From positions 1,592,501-1,656,500 of the forward strand of contig CP002098.1 of NCBI GenBank assembly GCA_000145985.1: a DNA stretch of 64,000 bases, written 5' to 3'. Numbering within the stretch: the stretch's first letter is position 1; each line of letters starts with the position of its first letter. The position numbers and the translations under genes were made by a program. Of this stretch, positions 6,231 through 60,231 are shown piece after piece. The stretch is from Ignisphaera aggregans DSM 17230 (lineage in GTDB: Archaea; Thermoproteota; Thermoprotei_A; Sulfolobales; Ignisphaeraceae). The notes below the pieces were generated by a model. The model saw nothing but the letters and a program-made list of their open reading frames with translations. It was not told the origin of the DNA and made no database searches.

Positions 6231-6817
6231 AGCTAAAGATATGTGGGGTAACAAGTATTGAGGATGCTATAGAGATTAGTAGAATTGGTGTTGACTATAT
6301 AGGTGTTGTAAACGATTTATCGAGTCCTAGATATAGACCTCTACAATTTATTGATGAGCTAAAGAAATATATCTCTACCCCAATCGTTAGTGTAAGAGTC
6401 TCTGGAGATATCACCACATTCTATAATACATCAGCTGACTATATACAGATACATAGAGTTCTAAGTGATGAGGAACTTGAGATAGTTACAACATTTAGCA
6501 AGAAGACTATTCTCTATGTACCTGCATCTCTTGACTATATAGACTATCTAAAGAAGGCTCAAAGAGCTACAGATCTAATACTATTCGACTCTCCTAAGAA
6601 GGGTATAAGATCTGATCCAAAGATACTTAGAATTCTACTGAATTATCATCCAGATGCAGGTGTTGGTGGAGGTATAAATATAGAGAATATCCATGAATAT
6701 CTAGCTCTAGAACCTAAATGGATAGATGTCTCAAGTGGTGTAGAGATTTCTATTGGTAAAAAGGATTTGAATCTCGTTAAAAGGTTGAAAGAGGCTGTAG
6801 ATTCATGGAGAAGATAA
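6221..6817 (+). CDS. trpF: Phosphoribosylanthranilate isomerase
   Basis: Performs the Amadori rearrangement of phosphoribosylanthranilate. It is a 198-residue TIM barrel with the catalytic Cys in LKICGVTSIEDA at the N-terminus, the catalytic Asp region in ATDLILFDSPKKG, and the phosphate-binding loops GVGGGINIENI and IDVSSGVE. The SD AAGGTGATG precedes ATG 6221. The start overlaps trpD and the end overlaps trpE. Confidence 0.93.
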   Translation: MRIKLKICGVTSIEDAIEISRIGVDYIGVVNDLSSPRYRPLQFIDELKKYISTPIVSVRVSGDITTFYNTSADYIQIHRVLSDEELEIVTTFSKKTILYVPASLDYIDYLKKAQRATDLILFDSPKKGIRSDPKILRILLNYHPDAGVGGGINIENIHEYLALEPKWIDVSSGVEISIGKKDLNLVKRLKEAVDSWRR

Positions 6818-41987: not shown

Positions 41988-42040
41988 CCATATAAATTTT
42001 TAAAGTCTTGTCAATAGTGTAATATAAGGTATAAGGTGAT
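41988..42040 (+). promoter_or_regulatory. TATA box and SD of the thrB operon
   Basis: catataaattttt (41988-42000) then taaag gives a TATA element; a start is expected near 42020-42028. AAGGTGAT at 42033-42040 is a strong SD placed 4 bases before ATG 42045. That ATG is in the wrong register for thrB. Confidence 0.6.
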
Positions 42041-42046
42041 TTAGAT

Positions 42047-43030
42047 GCTCCAAACACATTAGAGAGACTAGATAAATGTGATAGAGGATATATAGCGGTA
42101 AAAGCACCTGCCTCAATAGCGAATCTAGGACCTGGATTCGATATTCTTGCTATGGCTATTAAGGATCTATATGATATTGTTGAGGTATGTATCTCCTCAG
42201 GCAATAACAATATATATGTATATTCTCATTCTAAAGACTTTGAAATTCCATCTGGAGAAGGAAATGTAGCATATCATATAGCTAAAAACTTTAGAGAGAT
42301 ATACAACATACATAACATTGATATTTATATCAATGTTATTAAAGGTGTACCACCTGGTTATGGACTAGGAAGTTCTGGAGCAACATCTGCAGCAACAGCA
42401 TTTGGACTCTCAAAACTATTACAACCTAGTCTTAGTGATATAGAGATTCTTAGAATTGCTGGTGTAGGAGAGAAATTTGCTTCTGGATCTATACATTATG
42501 ATAATGTTGCTGCAAGTCTCTTTGGAGGTATAGTGATTCTAGATCTTTCTAAGGAGAGAGTCTATAGAATTATACCTAGGTCAGAGATATATGTAGCTAT
42601 TGTAATGCCTAAGAATGTGTTACAGATAGAGAGAAAGACTGCATATGCAAGATCTATATTACCTAAGAGTATAGATCTAGATATCCATGTACTTCAGTCA
42701 TCAGTTATAGCTAAGATGATCTATGCATTAGCTATAGATAATATAGATTTATTTGGAGAAGCAGTATCTACAGACTACATAATTGAACCTATACGATCTA
42801 AGCTTATACCATTTTATAGTGAGATGAAGAGAATAGCACTTGAAAATGGGGCTCTGGGATTCAACATTAGTGGTGCAGGTCCATCTGTCTTCTCTATACA
42901 TAGATCCAGAGACAATGCAGAGAATGTAGGCAAAAAGCTTATAGAGTTTCTCAATAGTAGGGGGATAGAAACAAGTTTTTTCGTAACACAGTTATCAGAT
43001 AAAGGTGCTGAGGTGATGAAGCAGTGGTAA
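42047..43030 (+). CDS. thrB: Homoserine kinase, GHMP type, with no normal in-frame start codon
   Basis: Phosphorylates homoserine in threonine synthesis. The conserved N-terminal motif VKAPASIANLGPGFDILA is encoded upstream of the first in-frame ATG (42152), so that ATG cannot give a complete enzyme. The ATP loop is PPGYGLGSSGATSAATAFGL and the C-terminal motif is GFNISGAGPSVFSI. Between the in-frame TAA (42032-42034) and 42152 there is no ATG, GTG or TTG in this frame. An ATG at 42045, with a perfect SD, is followed by two extra bases and then this frame. An ATA at 42092 with GAGG 4 bases upstream would give 312 residues. Choices: one-base deletion or sequence error, ATA initiation, or a -1 shift at the start. 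Confidence 0.85.
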   Translation, partial: APNTLERLDKCDRGYIAVKAPASIANLGPGFDILAMAIKDLYDIVEVCISSGNNNIYVYSHSKDFEIPSGEGNVAYHIAKNFREIYNIHNIDIYINVIKGVPPGYGLGSSGATSAATAFGLSKLLQPSLSDIEILRIAGVGEKFASGSIHYDNVAASLFGGIVILDLSKERVYRIIPRSEIYVAIVMPKNVLQIERKTAYARSILPKSIDLDIHVLQSSVIAKMIYALAIDNIDLFGEAVSTDYIIEPIRSKLIPFYSEMKRIALENGALGFNISGAGPSVFSIHRSRDNAENVGKKLIEFLNSRGIETSFFVTQLSDKGAEVMKQW

Positions 43031-44073
43031 TAGAGAGTAATAGAAAGGTTAATGTAGCTATAATAGGTTTTGGATCTGTGGGCAGAGCATTAGCTAGAGT
43101 ATTAGCTTTAAAGAGGAGGGATATCTATAACAGATATGGAATTAATATATCTATTGTAGCTATTGTAGATTCTAAGGGTATGGCAATAAAGCCTGAGGGA
43201 TTTGATGAATATGAACTTCTAAAACTAAGTGAACTTCCAAGATCTTCTGTAAACATGTTTAAGCCATATGCAGTTGATGGTGTTGATCTTGAGAAGCTCT
43301 ATAACACTGTTACACCTGATATACATGTAGAGCTAACGCCATCGGATTACTCTACAGGTAAGCCAGGAGTTGATAATGTATTCTTTGCAATTAGCAGAGG
43401 AGCACATTTAGTCCTAGCTAATAAAGCTCCACTAGTTTTAAAGTTCCGTGAGCTGATTGATAAGGCTAAGAGCAGGGGTCTGGAGGTTAGATTTAGAGCT
43501 ACAGTTCTTGGTGGAACTCCATTTATAGATACCTTAATGAGTATGAAGAGCTATGAAATAGATAGGATAGAGGGTATTATTAATGCTACAACAAATTTCA
43601 TATTGACGGAAATGCATGATAAATTGATAGAGTTTAGCGAAGCTCTAAAAATTGCTCAGGCACTAGGAATAGCAGAGGCAAATCCATCACTAGATATAGA
43701 TGGTATTGATGCAGCAGCAAAACTTGTCATTATATCGAATATTGTTGGTACACCGATAAAGCTTGAAGATGTTTATAGGGAGAGTCTTTCTAGAATTACT
43801 CTAAGAGATATTGTTGATGCTATTAAACAGGGATTTGTTATAAAGTATATAGCGACATTGAATATTAGAGAGAGGTCAGCTTCTGTTAGAATAGCTAGAG
43901 TACCGAGAAACGATATTTTTGCTCAAATCAATGGAACATTAAATGGTCTAAGAATTAAGACTAATGTTGCAGAGCTGATATTTATAGGTAAAGGTGGTGG
44001 AGGAATAGAGACAGCACATTCAGTTTTAGATGATATAATATCAATTGCTCAAAAAGTTGTAGGTAGTAGATAG
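43024..44073 (+). CDS. hom: Homoserine dehydrogenase
   Basis: A 349-residue NAD(P)-dependent enzyme that reduces aspartate semialdehyde to homoserine. Rossmann motif VAIIGFGSVGRALARVLAL; catalytic region VLANKAPLVLKF, RATVLGGTPFIDTL, IINATTNFILTEM and NPSLDIDGIDAAAKL. No C-terminal ACT domain, as in other short archaeal forms. GTG 43024 has GGTGA upstream and overlaps the thrB stop by 7 bases. Confidence 0.94.
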   Translation: MVIESNRKVNVAIIGFGSVGRALARVLALKRRDIYNRYGINISIVAIVDSKGMAIKPEGFDEYELLKLSELPRSSVNMFKPYAVDGVDLEKLYNTVTPDIHVELTPSDYSTGKPGVDNVFFAISRGAHLVLANKAPLVLKFRELIDKAKSRGLEVRFRATVLGGTPFIDTLMSMKSYEIDRIEGIINATTNFILTEMHDKLIEFSEALKIAQALGIAEANPSLDIDGIDAAAKLVIISNIVGTPIKLEDVYRESLSRITLRDIVDAIKQGFVIKYIATLNIRERSASVRIARVPRNDIFAQINGTLNGLRIKTNVAELIFIGKGGGGIETAHSVLDDIISIAQKVVGSR

Positions 44074-45198
44074 ATGAGTTTCAAAGATACTGTTGTTAAG
44101 ATAGGCGGATCATTATTAAGAGATACTGCTACATATATTGATGTAGCACTAAATATAAAGAGGGTGTTTATAGAGAATGGCTATAGACCTTTTATAGTTG
44201 TCTCTGCTGCAAAGGGTATTACAGATGAGCTTATCAATGTAGCTAAAGGTAATAAGAAATCTCTTGATATAGTTATAGATAGATATCTAGATATTGCTAA
44301 GGGATTTAGTAGCGATAAACTATTGAGAAGGATTTTACAAGAACTTGAAAATCTTAAGAGAATAGCTGAAACACTTAACTATATAGATCTATCATTACTA
44401 GATCTAATACTTTCATTTGGAGAAAGAATAAGTAAGATTCTGATGGTTGAAGCTCTTGAGAATATTGGTGTTAAGTCGGTTGAACTAAATGCTAAGGATA
44501 TTATAATTACTAATAATGTTTATGGAGATGCAACCATAGATTATGAACAAACTCTCTCTAATCTTGAAAAAGTGTTTTTGTCTTTAAGGAATAGCATGGT
44601 TGTACCTGTGATTGAGGGTTTTATAGGTGCGACACCTGATGGAATGATAACTACTCTTGGGAGAGGTGGCTCTGATTATACAGCAACAGCTATAGCCTCA
44701 TTACTAGGTTTTGAAGATGTTTATCTTGTTACTGATGTTGATGGGATAATGACTACAGATCCAGATATAATTCCTAGTGCTAGGATAGTTAGATATATGA
44801 GTTATAGAGAGGCTCTAGAAGCTTCTATGTATGGTGCAAAGAGGATTAATCCCAAGGCATTTGAACCTCTTGAGAGATTCTATAGCTCAAAAGTTTTGAT
44901 AGGTTCTTGGAAGATGTTTGGAACAGAGGTTGTAAAGGAATTGTCAAGTAGTTTATATGGCCCTAAGATAATCATGGGTAAGAGATCTTCTGACTATTCA
45001 TATCTAGCTATAGTTGGTGAGGGTGTTTCTAGAACTAAGAACATAAGATTAGTATTAGATGTTCTTGACTCTGAAAAAATTGAGCTACTTGGTATACAGG
45101 CATATGCATATAGACCTTCACTAGTTCTATATGTAGATAACAACGATATGCTCAAAGCCTTAAAATCTCTGCACAAAGCACTTTTTGAAGGTGATTAA
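44074..45198 (+). CDS. lysC: Aspartate kinase, short form with one ACT-sized segment
   Basis: Phosphorylates aspartate, the first committed step to threonine. Kinase core: VVKIGGSLLRDT, PFIVVSAAKGITDELI, FGERISKILMVEAL, TTLGRGGSDYTATAIASLLG and YLVTDVDGIMTTDP. After the catalytic domain only about 75 residues remain (from SYLAIVGEGVS on), room for one ACT domain, while most aspartate kinases carry two; total 374 residues against the usual 400-470. Feedback control may therefore be reduced or depend on another protein. The ATG follows hom immediately; the end overlaps the asd leader. Confidence 0.92.
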   Translation: MSFKDTVVKIGGSLLRDTATYIDVALNIKRVFIENGYRPFIVVSAAKGITDELINVAKGNKKSLDIVIDRYLDIAKGFSSDKLLRRILQELENLKRIAETLNYIDLSLLDLILSFGERISKILMVEALENIGVKSVELNAKDIIITNNVYGDATIDYEQTLSNLEKVFLSLRNSMVVPVIEGFIGATPDGMITTLGRGGSDYTATAIASLLGFEDVYLVTDVDGIMTTDPDIIPSARIVRYMSYREALEASMYGAKRINPKAFEPLERFYSSKVLIGSWKMFGTEVVKELSSSLYGPKIIMGKRSSDYSYLAIVGEGVSRTKNIRLVLDVLDSEKIELLGIQAYAYRPSLVLYVDNNDMLKALKSLHKALFEGD

Positions 45199-45199
45199 A

Positions 45200-46267
45200 A
45201 TGAAGAGATCTGTAGCTATATTAGGAGCTACAGGTATTGTGGGACAAAGATTCTTCTCTCTACTCTCAGAACACCCATGGTTTGACCTAAGACTTGTTAT
45301 GGCATCAGAGAGAAGTGCTGGTAAGATATATGCAGAGAGTGTTAAATGGGTCTTGGAAAAACCACTTCCAAAGAAGGCATATGAATTAACCATTGAACAG
45401 ATAGATATTGATACTATCACAAGGGAGAAGATAGATATTGCTTTTACAGCACTTCCAGCTGATGCAGCAAAAGAGATTGAGCCTGAGCTCGCTAGGAGGG
45501 GAATAGTAGTAGTATCTAATGCTAGTTCCATGAGACTTGAACCAGATATACCCTTGCTCAACCCAGAGGTTAACGCTGATCATATTGATGTAATAGAATT
45601 TCAGCGAAGAAATAGGGGGTGGAACGGTGCTATAGCTAAAGTACCCAACTGTACAACTGCAATTTTAACACTATCACTTAAGCCACTCCATGATGAGTAT
45701 GGTATTAAACGAGTTGTCGTCTCAACAATGCAGGCATTATCTGGTGCAGGTCTTACAGGAGTTCCATCAATGTTTATACTCGATAACATTATACCCTATA
45801 TAGAGGGTGAGGAAGAGAAGGTCGAGGCAGAGTCTAGAAAGATCCTCGGAACACTAAAACAGGGTGTAATAGAGCTAAATAATAGTATTGCTGTATCAGC
45901 AAGTTGCCACAGAGTAATGGTGTTAGAAGGACATTCAATGGCTGTATTTGTTGAACTAGAAAAGAAACCTAGGGATATAGAAGAGATTATAAATGTTATG
46001 GAGACATTCAAAGACAATAAAATAAAGGGTTTGGGACTACCAACAGCTCCAGAAAAACCTGTTGTGGTGAGAAGAGAGGTGGATAGACCACAGCCAAGAT
46101 TAGATAGATTAGAGGGTAATGGTATGAGCGTTGTGGTAGGGAGGATAAGAGAGGACAAGGTTATGAATGGAATAAAATACTTTGCACTAGGGCACAACAC
46201 CATTAGAGGAGCAGCAGGAACAGGGGTTTTGATAGCAGAACTACTGGTGAAGAAGGATCTAGCCTAG
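45200..46267 (+). CDS. asd: Aspartate-semialdehyde dehydrogenase
   Basis: Reduces aspartyl phosphate with NADPH. It has 355 residues. Nucleotide motif VAILGATGIVGQRFFSLL; catalytic Cys in KVPNCTTAILTLSL; later the active-site SASCHRVMVLEGHSMAVF. It resembles the archaeal/fungal-type Asd. ATG 45200 with AGGTGAT in front is preferred to the upstream in-frame GTG at 45185. Last gene of thrB-hom-lysC-asd. Confidence 0.94.
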   Translation: MKRSVAILGATGIVGQRFFSLLSEHPWFDLRLVMASERSAGKIYAESVKWVLEKPLPKKAYELTIEQIDIDTITREKIDIAFTALPADAAKEIEPELARRGIVVVSNASSMRLEPDIPLLNPEVNADHIDVIEFQRRNRGWNGAIAKVPNCTTAILTLSLKPLHDEYGIKRVVVSTMQALSGAGLTGVPSMFILDNIIPYIEGEEEKVEAESRKILGTLKQGVIELNNSIAVSASCHRVMVLEGHSMAVFVELEKKPRDIEEIINVMETFKDNKIKGLGLPTAPEKPVVVRREVDRPQPRLDRLEGNGMSVVVGRIREDKVMNGIKYFALGHNTIRGAAGTGVLIAELLVKKDLA

Positions 46268-58946: not shown

Positions 58947-60113
58947 TTATAAGCTATACCTAATAATGGTATCAGGATCCTTTAGAGCATGACCAGTAGC
59001 AATAAGTACAACAGTACTATTTCTCTCTATAATACCATTGTTATATGCTTTAATAAGTCCAGCTAGAGTAGTAGCACTTGCTGGTTCTACACCTATACCC
59101 TCAAATCTTGCTAGAATCTTTATAGACTCTAAAATCTCTTCATCAGTTACAGAAATAAATGTCCCCTTGGACTCTCTAACAGCTCTCACTGCCTTCATCC
59201 AGTTAACAGGCCTACCTATTCTTATAGCAGATGCTATTGTCATAGGCTTCTCAATAAACTGAGGTGTATCTAGACCTCTACTCCATGCACTAGCAAGAGG
59301 TGCTGCACCCTCTGCCTGTATTCCTATCATCCTTGGCAACTCTCTTATCAATCCATATCTATACAGCTCTTTAAAGCCCTTCCAAATAGCAGATATATTA
59401 CCAGCATTCCCAACAGGTACAATAACAGCGTCAGGAACAATTCCAAGCTCATCAACAACCTCAAAAGCTATAGTCTTCTGACCCTCTAATCTCCATGGAT
59501 TATAAGAGTTTAGCGGATAGAGATCCCTTGAATTAGAGCTAGTAACATTCATAAACACCTCCTCTAGAGCATCATCAAACGTACCATCCAATTCCATAAC
59601 CTCTGCCCCATGAAGAAGTGCTTGAGCTATCTTACCCTTTGCAACACCTCCCTTAGGCAATACAACAATACATTTAATACCAGCTCTAGCAGCATAAGCA
59701 GCTGCTGAAGCTGCTGTATTTCCAGTACTTGCAACTATAACACCTTTTACCCCTATATACTTAGCTATAGTTACCCCTACAGTCATCCCCCTATCTTTAA
59801 AACTCCCAGTTGGATTTGCACCCTCAAACTTAACATAAGCCTCTATACCATTGATATTTAGAGCCTCCATAACCCTACTAAGCTTTATTAATGGTGTTCC
59901 TCCCTCTCCCATAGTAATAGGTTTAATATCATTACCCAATGGAAGTAACTCCTTATATTTCCATACACCCATCCTTCTATTAGCAATAGATCTAAAATCA
60001 ACCTCTATGTTGCTTGGCATCTCTACTTCTAGTAAACCTCTACAACGGGGGCATATGAAAAGCCATGGATCTGCTTCATATATAGATCCACAATTTATAC
60101 ATCTAAGTAATAC
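58947..60113 (-). CDS. thrC: Threonine synthase with N-terminal zinc ribbon, no normal in-frame start codon
   Basis: A PLP enzyme converting phosphohomoserine to threonine. PLP lysine in NPTGSFKDRGMTVGV; phosphate/glycine loop PVGNAGNISAIWKG; VASTGNTAASAAAYAARAG. The first in-frame ATG (60020) would drop the zinc ribbon, yet the 30 codons before it encode a perfect one (LRCINCGSIY and ICPRCRGLLEV). From the in-frame TAG at 60174-60176 down to that ribbon there is no ATG, GTG or TTG in frame. An ATG at 60113-60115 is off by the same register as in thrB: ATG, two bases, then the frame. Reading its G twice gives a natural MVLLRCINCG start. One-base deletion, sequence error or unusual initiation are the options. 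Confidence 0.87.
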   Translation of the reverse strand, partial: VLLRCINCGSIYEADPWLFICPRCRGLLEVEMPSNIEVDFRSIANRRMGVWKYKELLPLGNDIKPITMGEGGTPLIKLSRVMEALNINGIEAYVKFEGANPTGSFKDRGMTVGVTIAKYIGVKGVIVASTGNTAASAAAYAARAGIKCIVVLPKGGVAKGKIAQALLHGAEVMELDGTFDDALEEVFMNVTSSNSRDLYPLNSYNPWRLEGQKTIAFEVVDELGIVPDAVIVPVGNAGNISAIWKGFKELYRYGLIRELPRMIGIQAEGAAPLASAWSRGLDTPQFIEKPMTIASAIRIGRPVNWMKAVRAVRESKGTFISVTDEEILESIKILARFEGIGVEPASATTLAGLIKAYNNGIIERNSTVVLIATGHALKDPDTIIRYSL

Positions 60114-60231
60114 ATTTTCTTTAAATAACCTAGACTTATGTTTATTTATGTTTCCAAGACATCCACCTAAGGACTATCTCTAATTATCTAGAAATAAAAA
60201 TCTTTTGTATAATAACCATGTTAAATGATGT

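Follow-up and report, generated by a model that had tools for sequence, protein, structure and literature searches.

A putative start-proximal −1 frameshift at the threonine genes thrB and thrC of Ignisphaera aggregans and its order

How is the homoserine kinase gene thrB of Ignisphaera aggregans translated if its reading frame offers no canonical start ahead of the conserved N-terminus? An earlier note on the 64-kb window (the whole stretch of DNA analysed here) had raised the question, and its coordinates all held when re-read: the thrB frame is closed on its 5' side by TAA 42032 and runs uninterrupted from there to the stop at 43028-43030, and its first ATG, GTG or TTG is ATG 42152, 3' of the encoded motif VKAPASIANLGPGFDILA. 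The TATA box and the Shine-Dalgarno (SD) sequence do point, as had been claimed, to ATG 42045, which is out of register with thrB and meets TAG after five codons (Table 1). The product scores as homoserine kinase against NF002288 of NCBIfam (274 bits, cut-off 194) and against TIGR00191, thrB (203 bits, cut-off 168). We propose, with a probability of about 0.72, a programmed −1 frameshift close to the start of thrB and of the threonine synthase gene thrC, by which both would read the supply of threonyl-tRNA; judging from the sequences, the ribosome probably slips back one base at the leader of threonine-pathway genes across most of the order, Ignisphaera included. Established are the conserved architecture, the register, the threonine codon, the partly re-pairable context, the missing in-frame starts and the first-gene position; the actual slip at the leader, and Thr-tRNA charging as what sets its rate, we infer.

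Table 1. Features of the thrB and thrC loci, in window coordinates.
Feature	Position	Strand	Remarks
A+T-rich TATA-like promoter stretch ATATAAATTTTTAAAGT, upstream of thrB	41990..42006	+	Read from the sequence
SD AAGGTGAT of thrB	42033..42040	+	Distance to ATG 42045 as in ordinary genes
thrB zero-frame mini-ORF ATG CTC CAA ACA CAT TAG (M-L-Q-T-H-stop)	42045..42062	+	Read from the sequence
CAA, proposed P-site codon of the −1 slip	42051..42053	+	Read from the sequence
ACA threonine codon, proposed hungry A-site sensor	42054..42056	+	Thr/Met at the equivalent place in 19/19 thrB leaders
thrB (homoserine kinase) frame, entered after the proposed −1 slip	42053..43030	+	Predicted N-terminus M-L-Q-N-T-L-E-R
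Downstream genes of the thrB cluster, ordinary starts	43024..46267	+	From the ORF list
hom	43024-44073	+	Identity supported by the analysis
Aspartokinase	44074-45198	+	Name rests on the sequence read
asd-like gene	45185-46267	+	Name rests on the sequence read
SD AGGTGG of thrC	60163..60168	−	Read from the sequence
thrC zero-frame mini-ORF TTG GAA ACA TAA (M-E-T-stop)	60146..60157	−	TTG/GTG/ATG GAA ACR in thrC of most relatives
thrC (threonine synthase), −1 relative to the TTG	58947..60152	−	Predicted N-terminus M-E-N-I-N-K

Chance does not account for the out-of-frame start of thrB. The window contains the 18-nt pattern RTGNNCCAAACRNNNTAG once, where shuffles gave an expectation of 0.00. We screened 864 kb of the I. 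aggregans genome, with 741 stop-to-stop ORFs of at least 150 codons, for a strong SD, an out-of-frame start, a short mini-ORF and an in-frame start delayed by at least 12 codons, ignoring the threonine codon. Five ORFs passed: thrB, thrC, the release factor gene aRF1 (at +1), a tRNA-guanine transglycosylase-like ORF (at +1) and one that looks spurious. Among these five, within the 864 kb, the −1 register at recognisable genes was confined to thrB and thrC.

The earlier note had suggested comparing the thrB start among relatives. Using the thrB protein as query against genomes of the order, we obtained 18 further thrB genes with the same out-of-frame architecture, so that the set, the window's gene included, comprises 19 genes from families f1, f2, f5, f8 and f9 (G, L and f denote our genomes, loci and families). 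The set was chosen without requiring a Thr or Met codon, and in all 19 an SD-led ATG or GTG is followed by the gene at −1. That many of the genomes compared are draft assemblies counts against the proposal, though several are closed single-contig ones; our leader counts are counts of genomes, not of independent events. The mini-ORF is kept in the 18 other genes as RTG-NNC-CAA-ACR or close variants, among them ATG CGC CAA ACA CTA TAG, ATG CGC CAA ACA GAA TAG and GTG TTC CAA ACG TTA TAG, and further GTG CAC CCT ACG, ATG CTC CCT ATG (both followed by more codons) and ATG GAA ACA TAC TAG. Stretches similar to the window's TATA-like element (TTTTTAAA or TTTAAA) precede thrB in the relatives.

The candidate sensor codon is the fourth, once the third, and encodes Thr (ACA or ACG) in 14 leaders and Met (ATG) in the other 5. 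Threonine and methionine are both end products of homoserine; in every thrB leader, then, the putative A-site codon matches an end product, as expected of a sensor frameshift. The two amino acids can be divided between genes of one genome: G146, G147 and G161 have Met in the thrB leader and Thr in that of thrC, and G047 has Thr in the thrB leader and Met in that of a methionine-pathway gene. Six of the 19 thrB genes are devoid of any in-frame ATG, GTG or TTG from the upstream stop to the conserved domain. The coding signal in the gene frame between leader and domain is supportive, if modest. In the thrB tree, all leader-bearing genes and ten ordinary-start genes form one supported subfamily, with two to five changes of the leader trait. 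The thrB of G133 (C|AAT|ACA) has a poor re-pairing context, which counts against a slip. In another subfamily, the thrB of G006 (L021) has ACG at the start position and its close relative G005 has GTG, a possible ACG start. A protein search against genome contigs returned mainly thaumarchaeotal thrB.

The same arrangement was found at thrC. The window's gene, identified by TIGR00260 (304 bits, above the cut-off of 167), has its first in-frame ATG, GTG or TTG at 60020, beyond the zinc-ribbon cysteines. We collected 110 thrC 5' ends across the order, 104 of them distinct. Under a strict SD rule, a start at −1 is followed by Thr as the second, third or fourth codon in 63 of the 104; this count, unlike the thrB set, selects for the threonine codon. 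In-frame starts are absent from 20 of these 63, present without an SD in 40 and with one in 3. Taking all SD-led out-of-frame thrC starts, 98 lie at −1 and 3 at +1; Thr stands at codons 2-4 in 72 of the former and none of the latter, and in 11% of the ordinary SD-led genes of I. aggregans. The contexts preceding Thr in the 63 strict leaders are G|GAA (43), C|CAA (9), G|GAT (6) and A|TTG (5), and no others, so that in 58 the P-site codon is preceded by a base identical to its own first base, the remaining five being A|TTG. Since ACA, ACG and ACC all occur as sensor codons, the amino acid rather than the letters is conserved.

The strict rule misses evident thrC leaders with a weaker SD (G019, G039, G023, G042, G052, G133, G183, G184, G041 and G063). 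It also misses the thrC of G157 (L181), in which ATA replaces ATG, GTG or TTG at the leader start position (ATA CTC CAA ACC AGT TAG). Around 30 thrC 5' ends are without a leader, which counts against the proposal. In the Sulfolobaceae-like family f11, TTG GAA ACR is found in 29 of 29 thrC genes, in most of which the SD itself contains a gene-frame stop (GGTGA); in-frame starts are wholly absent from G203 and G187. Most f11 thrC genes do have an in-frame ATG about eight codons downstream, a possible start that also counts against the slip.

According to the mechanism that we propose, ribosomes would bind the SD and initiate at the out-of-frame ATG (thrB) or TTG (thrC), and a threonine codon would enter the A site after one to three codons. 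With plentiful Thr-tRNA this codon would be read at once and the nearby stop reached, giving a peptide of a few residues only. With scarce Thr-tRNA, the A site would stay empty and the SD pairing of initiation would keep the ribosome waiting there, until the tRNA in the P site moves back by one base (from CAA to CCA, or GAA to GGA); the overlapping AAC would then be read and the enzyme made. Reaching the enzyme frame would require this −1 change ahead of the leader stop. Less Thr-tRNA would thus mean more slip and more enzyme, the physiologically right sign.

The leaders bear on this mechanism in several ways. Their SDs are spaced like those of ordinary starts, which supports initiation at the SD-led codon. 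Re-pairing one base back is at least partly possible for CAA on CCA, for GAA on GGA (with G-U in the middle) and for CCT or CCG on CCC; in the window's thrB the base before CAA is C 42050, the same as the first base of the codon, and the first and third pairs would be kept. At the A|TTG contexts a slip would put the initiator tRNA on AUU. CAA on CCA would lose one of its three base pairs and GAT on GGA would do worse, and neither is a classical slippery heptamer, which counts against the slip: the sites C_CAA_ACR, G_GAA_ACR, G_GAT_ACR and A_TTG_ACR do not follow X_XXY_YYZ. An SD placed 9-14 nt ahead of the site promotes −1 frameshifting in bacteria (PMC5009743). The distance from SD to shift site is 12 nt in most thrB genes (in the window, between GGTG and the CAA), 9-11 nt in most thrC GAA leaders and 6-8 nt in the A|TTG type; the first two fall within the bacterial range. 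No stimulatory stem-loop was found 5-9 nt downstream (mean folding z −0.2 over 19 thrB sites, folded without pseudoknots). Such an absence is expected of one-tRNA hungry shifting, which has been described as independent of a stimulatory structure (PMC8211752).

The leader is not restricted to thrB and thrC. We looked for the pattern RTGCGCCAAAYRNNNTAG in the phylum (398 genomes) and in the order (214 genomes); besides thrB, it matched the first codons of thrC (G119, G248, G269), of an aspartokinase gene (G041) and of a cystathionine-gamma-synthase-like gene (G047), with the gene always at −1. Four other matches (L133, L134, L140 and L163), inside or beside other genes, look like chance. Aspartokinase genes with the leader at −1, reading GTG CGC CAA ACG or TTG GAA ACG, are present in G041, G063, G142 and G143 (L353, L354, L370 and L372). 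In the cystathionine-gamma-synthase-like gene (L172, 1501-1518) the leader is ATG CGC CAA ATG AGA TAG, with Met in place of the Thr codon.

Operon position appears to matter. In G019, G039, G119 and G214 thrB lies behind thrC and has an ordinary ATG; the leader sits on that thrC, which has no in-frame start before the conserved domain. Behind asd, too, thrB has an ordinary start (G170, G034, G141 and G140). That thrB starts normally behind thrC or asd suggests that the element belongs to the first gene of the operon. In G006 (L167) and G007 (L136) the usual thrB has been lost, and a leader beginning with ATGCGCCAAACA still heads the hom-aspartokinase cluster. The −1 frame after it runs on without a stop for 113 and 145 codons, as far as the start of hom, through two sequences that bear no visible resemblance to thrB or to each other.

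Could the leader act without a frameshift? The mini-ORF might be a leader peptide that ends at its stop, with threonine sensed by stalling and the gene started by termination-reinitiation nearby, at a canonical or a non-canonical codon. The threonine codon and the first-gene position would suit such a peptide equally well; moreover, the thrC of G248 and G269 has TAGTG, an in-frame GTG overlapping the stop, and in most f11 thrC genes an ATG in frame follows the leader stop within a few bases. Against this, no canonical start lies between leader and conserved domain in the thrB and thrC of I. aggregans or in the thrC of G119, G019, G039 and others, and the stop-to-gene distance varies widely, the leader stops falling anywhere from codon 4 to beyond codon 15. 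Stalled, starved ribosomes would also lower enzyme output unless an RNA structure opened, and no such structure was found. The −1 frame, finally, is open throughout, even where the gene has been replaced (G006 and G007). We therefore regard reinitiation as unlikely, if still worth weighing.

Initiation at a non-canonical in-frame codon, independent of ATG 42045, appears very improbable. The earlier note had offered ATA 42092 as a rival start. The codon exists and has GAGG 4 nt upstream, and near-cognate starts may exist in the group, as the ACG of the G006 thrB against GTG in G005 illustrates; as a start, however, ATA 42092 finds no support, the aligned codon being GTT, GTC, ATT or others in relatives. 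Such a start would also leave the conserved SD-RTG-Thr unit, and thrC, unexplained. We give equally little credence to a frame restored in the RNA by splicing, editing or transcriptional slippage. Archaeal pre-mRNA splicing is reported in the group for another gene, cbf5 (PMC2738675). The shift site, however, has no homopolymer run, the leader-to-domain distance can be below 30 nt, too short for an intron, and unrelated genes whose flanks differ show an identical register. Sequencing error or a pseudogene has a negligible probability: one added base would give an ordinary thrB, the rescue that the earlier note had in mind, but the stated error rate of the genome is below 1 in 100,000 (PMC3035270), the same layout recurs in the 18 other thrB and more than 60 thrC genes from independent assemblies, so that conservation rules out an error, and the downstream reading frames are full-length and conserved.

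Other readings were tried and rejected. Upstream in-frame starts fail because, in many members, a gene-frame stop falls inside the SD or immediately before it. A shift at the start codon itself, giving a thrB protein that begins M-A-P-N, was discarded because the same nucleotides stand at thrC, aspartokinase and the methionine-pathway gene, which share no N-terminal homology; the TTG GAA ACA leaders further rule it out. TAG is not an invariant signal, given that TAA and TGA also occur and the stop position varies.

How does the proposed −1 switch relate to known systems? Bacterial release factor 2 (prfB), with its +1 shift at CUU_UGA_C, is similar in its start-proximal, obligatory frameshift, its upstream SD element and its slow A-site codon, which senses what the gene helps to supply. 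The archaeal leaders differ in their −1 direction, in a Thr (or Met) sense codon and in belonging to biosynthetic genes, and the initiating SD would do both jobs. In the thrL-type attenuation of enterobacteria, a short leader upstream of the thr genes contains threonine codons and acts by transcription attenuation with terminator hairpins. The archaeal leader, in contrast, is shorter, has one Thr codon and no structure, and overlaps the gene at −1; terminator or antiterminator hairpins of the thrL type were not found, the region from −40 to +60 being no more structured than expected (mean z 0.0).

Hungry-codon frameshifting (Gallant; PMC5009743) shares the proposed trigger, a shortage of aminoacyl-tRNA at one A-site codon, but is known there as a starvation effect on chosen sites; according to the same 2016 review, no frameshifting at a starvation codon was known to yield a trans-frame product with a function in starvation. 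The only archaeal −1 frameshift reported as of 2021 is that of fucA1 of Saccharolobus solfataricus, at an A_AAA_AAT heptamer that is accompanied by a stem-loop and by rare codons and lies within a long ORF (PMC8211752). It resembles the present case as a −1 event in a related archaeon and differs in lacking regulation by amino acid supply. A frameshift screen of 1106 prokaryote genomes missed sites less than 50 nt from the start, which its authors named as a limit (PMC3711429). Among open-licence papers we found no earlier report of the proposed switch, whether as a thrC frameshift in Sulfolobus or as an archaeal threonine leader peptide.

Outside the window, aRF1 of I. aggregans (G000:C1:1209279-1210400, minus strand; L153 and L314) has no in-frame start either; an SD and ATG TCT GTT TAG precede it, with the gene at +1. 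Its relatives (L315-L343) keep the start, an NTT codon and the stop, as in ATG CCT ATT TAG, ATG TCT ATT TAA, ATG CCT ATT TGA, ATG AGT CTT TAG and GTG AGG CGT ATT TAG. By analogy, this leader would appear to be the archaeal counterpart of the bacterial RF2 +1 autoregulation. We give even odds to a general class of start-proximal switches in which the A-site codon would name the sensed molecule: Thr (thrB, thrC, aspartokinase), Met (some thrB, the methionine-pathway gene) or a stop (aRF1, at +1). The class would be old in the order, being present in nearly all Sulfolobaceae-like genomes, and would have passed from gene to gene as a cassette.

Work on frameshifting at starved codons has long treated it as an error. 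If the proposed switch is real, a regulator of about 20 nucleotides, with neither protein nor RNA structure, would be conserved across an archaeal order and could be tested in tractable Sulfolobus strains, and wrong N-termini may have been annotated for many thrB, thrC and aRF1 genes of archaea. The tRNA-guanine transglycosylase-like ORF (526 codons; L297, G000:C1:80001-100000, near position 6747, plus strand) is likewise without an early in-frame start, and is preceded by an SD-led TTG in another frame, with the gene at +1.
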